Origin: a virus
Reading direction: 5' to 3' (one strand)
Length of the DNA: 31,567 nt
Virus record (IMG/VR): IMGVR_UViG_3300046011_005173
Coordinates: 1-31,567 of that record
The position numbers were made by a program, and so were the translations under genes. Shown in pieces: positions 9,294 through 14,908 of this stretch (position 1 is its first letter; each line of letters opens with the position of its first letter). Under the pieces are notes generated by a model that was given only the letters and a program-made list of their open reading frames with translations, made no database searches and had not been told where the DNA came from.

Positions 9294-9542
9294 ATGACTA
9301 TAGATGAAGTTTTACATCATTTCAAGAGTGAATATAAGGTTTGCCAGTTACTAGGAATTGGCCGACAAAATTTTACATATTGGAAAAAGAAAGGTTATAT
9401 AACCTATATGCAACAACTGGAAATTGAAAAACTATCAGGGGGTGTATTAAAAGCAAATATTCAAGATTTATATGACAGATATACGCATCATAGCGAAAAA
9501 ACCAAACAAGGTATTAATAAAAATAAAGGAATTAGCAAATGA
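9294..9542 (+). CDS. Cro-like helix-turn-helix regulator
   Basis: 82 residues. The N terminus matches small phage Cro-type proteins: MTIDEVLHHFKSEYKVCQLLGIGRQNFTYWKKKGYI, where YKVCQLLGIGRQNFTYWKKKG (about 14-34) is the helix-turn-helix, then QQLEIEKLSGGVLKA. The C-terminal 25 residues are polar and basic. It is the first gene of the rightward early operon, has a perfect ribosome site, and lies just behind a palindrome overlapping both early promoters; repression of those promoters is the likely job. No separate CI-type repressor is seen in the window. The stop overlaps the next start as ATGA. Confidence 0.85.
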   Translation: MTIDEVLHHFKSEYKVCQLLGIGRQNFTYWKKKGYITYMQQLEIEKLSGGVLKANIQDLYDRYTHHSEKTKQGINKNKGISK

Positions 9543-9808
9543 TTAAAGCGTTGAGTTGGGCATTAAGGCAGCATCCAGATAAAGTAACAACACATGAAAA
9601 ACTTGTGTTAATTGGAATGGCTGACATGTGCGATGAAGACATGAATGTAAGAGTATTGAAATATAAGCTTGCAAGATTTGCTGGATTAGATGTTCCTGAA
9701 ATCACAGAAATATTACGTCAACTAACTGATAAGGGTTTTATTAAAGAGCTAGAAGAAGATACAGATGGCGCTGATACATCAATTGCATATAGATTAATTG
9801 CATCTTAA
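9539..9808 (+). CDS. Winged-helix DNA-binding protein, 89 residues
   Basis: The protein starts MIKALSWALRQHPDKVTTHEKLVLIGMADMC and continues with RVLKYKLARFAGLDVPEITEILRQLTDKGFIKEL (about 37-70), a winged-helix arrangement like the N-terminal domains of phage replication initiators. It lacks any C-terminal domain. It is coupled to the Cro-like gene by an ATGA overlap. It may be an accessory replication protein or transcription regulator; the sequence does not decide. Confidence 0.7.
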   Translation: MIKALSWALRQHPDKVTTHEKLVLIGMADMCDEDMNVRVLKYKLARFAGLDVPEITEILRQLTDKGFIKELEEDTDGADTSIAYRLIAS

Positions 9809-10713: not shown

Positions 10714-11661
10714 ATGATTGGTCAAATTAGCAACAAAAACTTTAATCATCCCGCCTATATTAATGTTCAATATTTTGTACTTAAAGATAAAAACTTGAAT
10801 TTACTAGAAAAATTAATTTTTTCTGTTTTTTATTCTTTCTATTTTTCTGGAATGCCTATCAAGATGTCAGATGCTTATTTAGCTGAGATGATTTCATCTT
10901 CTGATGGTGACTATTCAGTACGACATATGAAGCGCGTTATAAATTCTTTAGAAGAAAAAGGATATATCAAACGATATAAAAACAAAAAAGGAAAAAGGCT
11001 AATTCAGGTTACAAAAATTATACAAACTCCAATAGAAATTAATGATGATGAAGATAATTTATACACAGATGCTGATGGGAAAGTTATCCACATTAGTAGT
11101 ACAAAAATTATACCAGAGGGACATCCTTGTCCCCATGAAGGGACATCTATGTCACCAGAGGAGGGACATTCTTGTCACCCATATAATAAAGAAGATAATA
11201 AAAAAGATAATAAAGTGTGTGATAAATCACAACGCACACAAAAATTTGATATTAAAAAACATAACCCCTTTGGCTTAAGTGATGAGACGCTCAAAGGTTA
11301 CATTGAGATGCGAAAGGCAATAAAAAAACCTTTAACTGAGCATGCTTGGAATTTATTAACCAATGAAATACAAAAAGCGGTCGATTTAGGATATACGGCT
11401 CAACAATGTATTGATGAAGCAATATTAAATACTTGGCAAGGTTTTAAAGCTGAGTGGATCCAAAACAGATATGCCGATAAAACGCAAAATAAAGCACCTA
11501 GAAGCGATTATCCAACGACAGCAGCACAAGAAGAACAGTATAGAAAAGAAAAGCAGCTAAGAGCTCAGGAAGAGGCTAAGGCATTTCGTAATTTAAAAGA
11601 AGTAGTTCACACACAAACAAGTTTATCTAATATCGCTAAAATGCGTGAAAGTTTGAAATGA
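10714..11661 (+). CDS. Phage replication initiator (lambda O-like organisation)
   Basis: 315 residues. Residues about 1-105 form a winged-helix DNA-binding domain (LEKLIFSVFYSF..., MSDAYLAEMISSSDGDYSVRHMKRVINSLEEKGYIKRY). Residues about 110-180 are a polar linker whose DNA holds three iterons and an AT-rich stretch. Residues about 188-250 (SDETLKGYIEMRKAIKKPLTEHAWNLLTNEI... TWQGFKAEWIQNRY) match the C-terminal domain of many phage replication proteins that recruit the helicase or its loader. The rest is charged and helical. It should bind the internal iterons and open the origin. AAAGGA precedes the ATG by about eight bases; the stop overlaps the next start as ATGA. No helicase gene is in the window. 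Confidence 0.8.
   Translation: MIGQISNKNFNHPAYINVQYFVLKDKNLNLLEKLIFSVFYSFYFSGMPIKMSDAYLAEMISSSDGDYSVRHMKRVINSLEEKGYIKRYKNKKGKRLIQVTKIIQTPIEINDDEDNLYTDADGKVIHISSTKIIPEGHPCPHEGTSMSPEEGHSCHPYNKEDNKKDNKVCDKSQRTQKFDIKKHNPFGLSDETLKGYIEMRKAIKKPLTEHAWNLLTNEIQKAVDLGYTAQQCIDEAILNTWQGFKAEWIQNRYADKTQNKAPRSDYPTTAAQEEQYRKEKQLRAQEEAKAFRNLKEVVHTQTSLSNIAKMRESLK
11118..11179 (+). repeat. Three 17-bp iterons, putative replication origin
   Basis: Units at 11118-11134 (GGGACATCCTTGTCCCC), 11140-11156 (GGGACATCTATGTCACC) and 11163-11179 (GGGACATTCTTGTCACC) share 13 of 17 bases and are spaced 22 and 23 bases apart, about two helix turns. Each has dyad symmetry around GACA...TGTC. The middle unit lies in a different codon phase from the other two, so the repeat is kept at the DNA level rather than for the protein. 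They sit inside the initiator gene, as in lambda. Confidence 0.75.
11181..11262 (+). other. AT-rich stretch after the iterons (unwinding-element candidate)
   Basis: The bases after the third iteron are nearly all A and T on one strand (ATATAATAAAGAAGATAATA and more, with GATAATA twice), followed by a small dyad GTGATAAATCAC. Iterons next to such a stretch are the layout of a lambda-type origin. Confidence 0.55.
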
Positions 11662-11924
11662 ATCCACATCTGACGCACATAAAATCCATATTGGACGGAA
11701 CTGCTACGGTAAAAGATGCTAAATGGGAAACTAAAAAAGCCGTGGATTTGGCAAATAAATCATTGCCGAAAGACAAACAAACGAATTTGCGTGAAGTGCG
11801 TGAAAACCTAATAGCTGATTGTGATGTTGAGGATATTAAAAATGGGGAATATACAACAGAGCAACTTGCCTTTCACATACAAGTCTGGGCTGAGTCAGGC
11901 AAGCTGTGTTGCATTAGAAAGTAA
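11658..11924 (+). CDS. Unknown protein coupled to the replication initiator
   Basis: 88 residues: MNPHLTHIKSILDGTATVKDAKWETKKAVDLANKSLP..., with REVRENLIADCDVEDIKNGEYTTEQLAFHIQVWAESGKLCCIRK in the second half. Mixed charge and helical, with three cysteines near the end. I do not recognise a defined domain. Its ATG overlaps the initiator stop as ATGA, so it is the last gene of the rightward early operon and probably works with the initiator. It meets the 33-residue gene on the opposite strand stop to stop with no gap. Confidence 0.65.
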   Translation: MNPHLTHIKSILDGTATVKDAKWETKKAVDLANKSLPKDKQTNLREVRENLIADCDVEDIKNGEYTTEQLAFHIQVWAESGKLCCIRK

Positions 11925-12742: not shown

Positions 12743-12761
12743 GCTTTATTTTACTAATTTA

Positions 12762-12809
12762 CTAGGTAGTAAGTGGTAAGAGCTACCCAGCAGCTAGGTA
12801 GCAAATGGT
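12762..12809. repeat. Direct and inverted repeats in the divergent control region
   Basis: CTAGGTAGTAAGTGGT (12762-12777) and CTAGGTAGCAAATGGT (12794-12809) match at 14 of 16 bases, 32 bases apart (three helix turns). Between them GCTACC (12782-12787) and GGTAGC (12797-12802) form an inverted pair. They lie upstream of both divergent transcription units, so they are likely protein-binding sites. Confidence 0.5.
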
Positions 12810-12836
12810 GGGTACCAAAAAATATTACCAATGGAT

Positions 12837-12878: not shown

Positions 12879-12955
12879 GCACCCGCAGAATCATTGGGTC
12901 AAAAGCGCATTTTTTAGTTTTATAAACAGATTTATCAACAGATTTTGGGGATAAG

Positions 12956-14097: not shown

Positions 14098-14366
14098 TAT
14101 TTTTGTAATCCTAAATCTTTAAGTTTTTGTGCAAATTCTTCAAAATTGTTTTTATTCAGCGTTTTAACAGAAAATGCAGATTCAAAATCTTTTAATATAA
14201 AATCACTTAATTTTTGATTTAACTCACCAATCATATTATTAAATGATTTTTCGTTCTCTTCTTTGTAATTATTAATCATAAATTTTATCTTATTTGTTAA
14301 TTCAGCTGGCTCATTTTCTAAATGATAATAGATCAACTCAAGCTCTTCTTTTGTGAATTCATTCAT
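14097..14366 (-). CDS. Unknown helical protein, 89 residues
   Basis: Starts [37 protein letters not shown], a pattern seen at the start of many small phage proteins of unknown role; the remainder is charged and helical. Two ATGs in a row are possible (14369 and 14366); the second has AGGGG six bases ahead and is preferred. It overlaps the end of the thymidine kinase gene, so it is coupled to it. Confidence 0.6.
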   Translation of the reverse strand: MNEFTKEELELIYYHLENEPAELTNKIKFMINNYKEENEKSFNNMIGELNQKLSDFILKDFESAFSVKTLNKNNFEEFAQKLKDLGLQK

Positions 14367-14908
14367 CATTTACCCCTAAAAAAATCCGCTCTACACACTG
14401 AAACATATGATTCTTCACGCCCAATTTTAACTTGCGCGCCTTCGTCTATGCGTTCGCCGTCTGCATCTATACGGATGTTCATCGTTGCCTTTTTGCTACA
14501 AGAGCAAGTTGTTTTAATTTCATTAATTTCATCAGCCCAAGCTAATAAATATTTACTGCCTTCAAATGGTTCGCCTTTGAAATCAGTGCGCAATCCATAG
14601 GCTTGAACTGGTATATCTGAAATATCTACGACACTTGCAAGAAATGTGACTTGTGCTTTTGTGAGAAACTGCGCTTCATCTACAAATACGCAACTTATGT
14701 CTCTAAGTAAACTTGCGTCAAATGTATCGGCATCCCACACCATCGCATCGCTAGAAAGGCCTATACGAGACTCTATTCTAGTTTTACCTACAACAGCAGG
14801 AATCAATAAAAGTGTCTTCATGCCCCGCTCTTGATAGTTATATGCTGATTGTAAAAGGGATGTCGTCTTGCCAGCATTCATCGCTGAATAGTAATAATAG
14901 AATTTCAT
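14366..14908 (-). CDS. tdk: Thymidine kinase
   Basis: 180 residues, close to bacterial type II thymidine kinase. The P-loop is SAMNAGKTT (8-16), the Walker B/substrate loop VDEAQFL (76-82), and the thymidine-binding segment [16 protein letters not shown] (103-118) is nearly the same as in E. coli. Zinc ligands Cys135 and Cys137 (TCSCSKKA) and Cys172 (SVCRAD) are present, but the fourth ligand, His in the E. coli CRKH, is Asp here. It phosphorylates thymidine to dTMP to feed phage DNA synthesis. GGAG lies four bases before the ATG. It is probably of bacterial origin and sits in a reverse-strand block between the terminase genes. Confidence 0.93.

Follow-up and report, generated by a model that had tools for sequence, protein, structure and literature searches.

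The window analysed here, a viral DNA stretch of 31,567 nucleotides from IMG/VR, is predicted to carry its replication origin inside the coding sequence of its own replication initiator. The segment at about 11084-11264 is highly likely to serve as the phage origin through initiator binding, duplex opening and help from DnaA, and in its sequence organization it is an intragenic iteron origin laid out like lambda ori. Several elements of this account are established computationally: the repeats and their dyad, their position in the linker of the protein, the DnaA box, the AT-richness, the exchange of the winged-helix (wHTH) domain together with iterons and box, and the association between recognition helix and iteron class. 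Every tested sequence feature of known origins of the lambda-O kind is present except a neighbouring loader.

The initiator gene and the iterons in its linker

The gene at 10714..11661 (+ strand) encodes an O-like replication initiator of 315 aa (PHROG 678 'replication initiation O-like', E 2.9e-34). Its homology is to O-like proteins through PHROG 678, with no direct match to lambda O itself. A Pfam scan of the protein returned only generic HTH matches, all sub-threshold, and did not place it in the RepA_N family. The bacterial genomes searched contained no close relative of the initiator, and the host was not found; among the cultured phages listed, none has a portal protein more than about 20% identical to that of the window.

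The AlphaFold2 model of the initiator has a mean pLDDT of 61 and was therefore used for domain limits only. It delimits a wHTH DNA-binding domain at residues about 30-100 (10801..11013, + strand), also matched by an HMM of GACA-iteron initiators (E 8e-10), and a helical C-terminal domain at residues 190-257 (11281..11484, + strand) with a WQGFKAEW motif common to relatives. Foldseek gave weak matches of the wHTH to MarR/Fur/DnaD-N wHTH folds. The recognition helix comprises residues 69-81 (10918..10956, + strand) and includes the class-determining Arg, R74 (10933-10935), which is preceded by R70, the window's version of a conserved R/K.

Between the two domains, residues 104-175 are predicted to be unstructured (pLDDT under 50) and contain three 17-bp repeats on the + strand: GGGACATCCTTGTCCCC at 11118-11134, GGGACATCTATGTCACC at 11140-11156 and GGGACATTCTTGTCACC at 11163-11179. 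Their consensus is GGGACATnnnTGTCnCC, the start spacings are 22 and 23, and the dyad core common to all three is GACA-N4-TGTC. The preliminary description had reported three such dyad repeats in the linker between the DNA-binding and C-terminal domains, an AT-rich run after them and a middle repeat in another codon phase, all of which is borne out. Counted from 10714, iterons 1 and 3 are read alike (EGHPCP and EGHSCH) and iteron 2 differently (EGTSMSP), which rules out a repeated peptide as the source of the set. The triple is unique within the window (at least 11/15 pairwise identity, spacing 19-26), its score was reached in 0/400 local Markov simulations, and the repeat count of the gene was reached in 1/300 synonymous-codon shuffles. 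Among three close relatives the segment shows only weak synonymous conservation, with p 0.03 in comparison with the remainder of the gene and 0.31 in comparison with the N-domain.

After the iterons, at 11180-11264 (+ strand), comes a candidate unwinding element in which GATAATAAA motifs occur in tandem. At 80% AT this run ranks among the top 0.4% of windows of 85 bp; ranked by duplex stability over 60-100 bp, it reaches only the top 1-5%. GC skew has no clear switch at the segment and is uninformative. A feature missed by the preliminary description is a perfect DnaA box, TTATCCACA, at 11084-11092 (+ strand), about 26 bp upstream of the first iteron. It is the single copy in the window, it is invariant in close relatives, and it supplies the consensus DnaA box next to iterons that is expected of a DnaA-dependent iteron origin. 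A weaker DnaA-box-like sequence, TTATACACA at 11059..11067 (+ strand), is not conserved in the close relative L002.

Repeats in the linker are also frequent in the wider set of initiators. Among 31 clusters of C-terminal relatives, picked regardless of repeats, the linker repeats of 18 exceed those of synonymous shuffles (p<0.01) and are nearly all of different sequence; an excess over shuffles is also seen in 22 of the 33 initiators in an independent prophage sample. The positive controls scored 0.007 (lambda O) and 0.023 (P22 gp18), so the shuffle test recovers known origins. PHROG 270 was rejected as a wider probe for being too generic, as it also matches 10/14 control genomes.

Exchange of domains and iterons among sister phages

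Sister contigs in IMG/VR, with flanking DNA roughly 70-95% identical to the window on both sides, provide a natural domain-swap experiment within one phage group. These phages have in common the 88-aa ORF downstream of the initiator and, within the initiator itself, its first codons and its C-terminal tail. Type A initiators (the window, L002, L003 and L004) have GACA iterons. Type B (L006/L092 and L093) has two copies of GTGTTCCAAATGGACAC at a spacing of 24 nt, and type B' (L094, L089 and L095) has two copies of GTGTTCCAGAAGGACAC, also spaced 24, with an identical centre change in both. Type C (L096) has three GTGCATGAGGTGCAC-type dyads of the GTGCA-N5-TGCAC class at a spacing of 21.

In the A to B swap, codons ~8-254 are exchanged; in the B to C swap, the N-domain and linker are replaced and the C-domain is kept (82% DNA identity). 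With every swap the wHTH domain and the iterons change, and the incoming cassette has a TTATCCACA of its own. Exactly one such box lies in the linker of every type, against 0.02-0.09 expected per gene under synonymous shuffling, and it comes back in types B, B' and C, whose linkers are non-homologous. In these three types, too, the iterons are succeeded by an AT-rich segment. The order of box, iterons and AT run is identical in A, B and B'; in type C the box lies 3' of the iterons and on the opposite strand.

A stand-alone winged-helix protein of 89 aa, similar to the N-terminal domains of initiators (PHROG 270, E 1e-4), is encoded upstream, at 9539-9808 of the window. We rejected it as the iteron binder, since its gene is kept across the swaps while the iterons change; it is the N-terminal part of the initiator itself that travels with the iterons. 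Types B and B' alone have an extra 68-aa ORF of no family between the initiator and the 88-aa ORF (L006 3195-3401, L087 3798-4004).

Recognition helix and iteron class

A DNA-only scan of viral contigs in IMG/VR for three copies of GACATNNNTGTC at iteron spacing gave 97 stretches, against a roughly estimated chance expectation far below 1. Most of these matches lie at nt 270-470 of ORFs of 200-450 aa, with a winged helix before them. The repeat sequence, described at first as unrelated, is indeed unrelated to that of lambda but proves to be a member of a widespread iteron class. Both GACA-N4-TGTC and GTGCA-N5-TGCAC form large intragenic iteron classes, found in the initiator-like genes of numerous phages unrelated to one another (IMG/VR contigs L154-L250, L254-L263, L264 and following).

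Clustering at 60% identity grouped the GACA matches into 50 clusters of unrelated phages. Initiators with three GACA-N4-TGTC have Arg at helix column 91 (equivalent to R74 of the window) in all 50 clusters, against 5/30 control initiators with other iterons (Fisher 4e-16), and the presence of this Arg in five controls without GACA palindromes means that it is not sufficient. A prediction recorded before the scan, that GTGCA-N5-TGCAC initiators would lack the column-91 Arg, held in 44/44 alignable clusters among the matches listed. This class has at least 44 alignable clusters and 17 others, and the scoring left out those 17, which align too poorly.

The difference at column 91 between 50/50 GACA and 0/44 GTGCA clusters, the latter among the matches listed, has a Fisher value of 7e-28, and this column separates the classes far better than any other (0.997 bits against 0.567 for the next column, with the same scope for GTGCA). 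A further prediction, of Tyr or Ser at column 91 of GTGCA helices, held only as 'not Arg', with Tyr/Ser in 14/44 and Asn in 12 of the clusters among the matches listed. Five positions before column 91, Arg or Lys occurs in 32/44 GTGCA clusters (among the matches listed) against 3/50 GACA clusters. The swap series of the window group fits the rule: type A has R, and type C combines Y at this column with R five positions before it. Type B, which represents a third site class, has K at column 91. Co-variation of repeats and winged helix in related phages, which the preliminary description had named as a check, is strongly positive across the sister group and about 94 clusters (among the matches listed). 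On the best tree the class switches 8 times, each time together with the Arg, and supported branches force only 1 of these switches. The tree of these short domains is poorly resolved, and the cases behind the association may not all be phylogenetically independent.

From the co-variation of iteron classes with the recognition-helix Arg we infer that the initiator N-terminal domain very probably binds the three repeats. The winged-helix domain would contact the GACA-N4-TGTC palindromes via Arg74 of the recognition helix, most likely with one dimer per iteron and all on one face of the DNA, as the spacing and the analogy with lambda O suggest. Assembly of the initiator on the iterons would then open the adjacent AT-rich run. 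We hypothesize that host DnaA at TTATCCACA assists in this opening, in recruiting the host helicase, or in both; the C-terminal domain may also play a part in helicase/primosome recruitment.

DnaA box, helicase source and comparison with known origins

The origins in lambda gene O (lambda ori), P22 gene 18 and phage L gene 18 resemble the segment in having ~20-bp iterons inside the initiator gene by an AT-rich run. Lambda has four iterons with spacing of 20, 24 and 23 (PMC3349717), the initiator genes of lambda, P22 and L each have their own different iterons (PMC8022706), and DnaA sites occur near pO in lambda (PMC3985674). The window shares with lambda-O-type origins the O-like homology, the spaced dyad iterons in the linker and the adjoining AT-rich region, and specificity of the N-domain for its own iterons is indicated by co-variation (domain swaps and the helix-iteron rule). 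It differs from lambda, P22 and L in iteron sequence, in having a DnaA box within the cassette and in lacking a recognisable neighbouring gene of the P or DnaB type. The proposal of a lambda ori layout therefore stands in its arrangement and is amended in two respects, with a DnaA box in the origin and no recognisable lambda-P-like or DnaC-like loader.

No phage helicase loader or helicase (P, DnaC or DnaB) is recognisable beside the initiator in the window group, and such a neighbouring gene is the one tested feature of the lambda-O kind that was not found. Of the distant relatives, by contrast, the majority carry a DnaC-, P- or DnaB-like gene beside the initiator. A conserved ORF of 88 aa and no family lies directly downstream of the initiator (11658..11924, + strand). 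We considered it as a hidden helicase loader and rejected it, as its model is small and helical and has no fold match. Further downstream, 12757-12836 is noncoding (about 80 bp) and contains CTAGGTAG repeats and inverted repeats; it is matched only in L085 among the relatives compared, both its neighbours are conserved, and it is perhaps an operator region for divergent genes. DnaA-like boxes occur at 12920 and 12932. A thymidine kinase gene at 14366-14908 is found in the sister phages L083 (3346-3884) and L086 (4279-4827) in opposite orientation and in another place, just after the replication genes.

Among AT-rich (<40% GC) iteron initiators, the strict TTATCCACA is confined to the group of the window. 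GACA clusters other than this group (n=50) have 0 DnaA boxes, against 0.85 expected; in GTGCA clusters of unrelated phages, boxes are enriched (10 observed against 2.25 expected, among the matches listed). The unrelated phages L272 (nt offsets 242-286 of the initiator ORF), L366, L314 and L379 have one to three consensus boxes near GTGCA iterons in the same ORF, and in L272 and L366 the boxes are directly beside the iterons. A link between DnaA box and absent loader as a general rule is suggestive only: boxes are rare outside the window group, and a search without hits does not prove absence.

The box might instead be coincidental or vestigial in a lambda-like origin without DnaA binding. This concerns one step of the mechanism and not the origin itself, and we consider it a minority reading that deserves weight, given that most GACA-iteron phages lack the box (0 observed, 0.85 expected). 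It also has a parallel in the P1 lytic origin oriL in repL, which is intragenic like the segment and has an AT-rich element and DnaA sites; those DnaA sites proved dispensable (PMC9948254), and oriL is not known to contain iterons, in which it differs from the window. Set against this reading is the perfect TTATCCACA in all three non-homologous linkers of the group, compared with 0/35 other AT-rich iteron initiators.

Iteron plasmids of the Rep_3 type (P1 oriR, F, pSC101 and RK2) combine iterons, a DnaA box and an AT-rich region. They differ from the window in that the plasmid origin lies outside the rep gene and the initiator is of another family, and their dependence on DnaA is noted in PMC5703833. 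The staphylococcal RepA_N plasmid pSK41 has a 319-aa Rep with DnaD-like folds, whose N-terminal domain binds four boxes mid-gene and whose ori-encoded centre is a linker (PMC5703833). It is like the window initiator in its three-part protein plan, and differs in being from a plasmid of a Gram-positive host, in its boxes and in the lack of detected sequence homology to the window protein. In PLE RepA and ICP1 Odn, an N-terminal domain and its iterons are likewise exchanged as a specificity pair (PMC8263062), with the differences that those iterons are noncoding and the protein family is another.

With the origin reading as the reference, it could also be argued that the repeats are an intragenic operator only, by which the initiator represses or roadblocks its own transcription, the origin lying elsewhere. 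Evidence of binding alone would not prove origin function, and the repeats of the noncoding 12757-12836, with the nearby DnaA-like boxes, could host other control sites. We regard this as improbable in view of the recurrence of DnaA box, iterons and AT-rich run together in all four cassettes, and of similar arrays in the lambda and P22 genes that are origins (PMC8022706). Less probable still is a role of the dyads as mRNA hairpins that regulate translation or decay. The mRNA of 11076-11262 does fold better than shuffles (z -3.06), as is expected from the dyads, and a search of RNA families found no Rfam match for the segment; an RNA function would not account for the helically regular spacing of the direct repeats, for the DnaA box and AT-rich flank, or for co-variation with a residue of the recognition helix. 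That the repeats encode a repeated peptide or arose by chance duplication in a free linker is hardly credible, for although types B and C do have spacing in multiples of 3 and peptide repeats, the codon phase differs in the window, the repeats exceed synonymous shuffles, and the motif recurs in 97 IMG/VR stretches, mostly linkers of divergent proteins.

Taken as an origin, the segment belongs to a protein and binding site held within one gene, which makes each such phage a self-contained protein-DNA specificity pair. We tentatively offer a joint reading, possible though doubtful as a whole, in which a code (Arg at one helix position with GACA-N4-TGTC; non-Arg and a basic residue five positions earlier with GTGCA-N5-TGCAC) would go with trading of wHTH, iterons and DnaA box as one intragenic cassette, and with host DnaA recruiting the helicase in place of a phage loader. 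The recurrent DnaA box poses the question of where phages with no recognisable loader obtain their helicase. Large contig collections may then serve to decode winged-helix recognition, and origins of this kind would be predictable from sequence alone.
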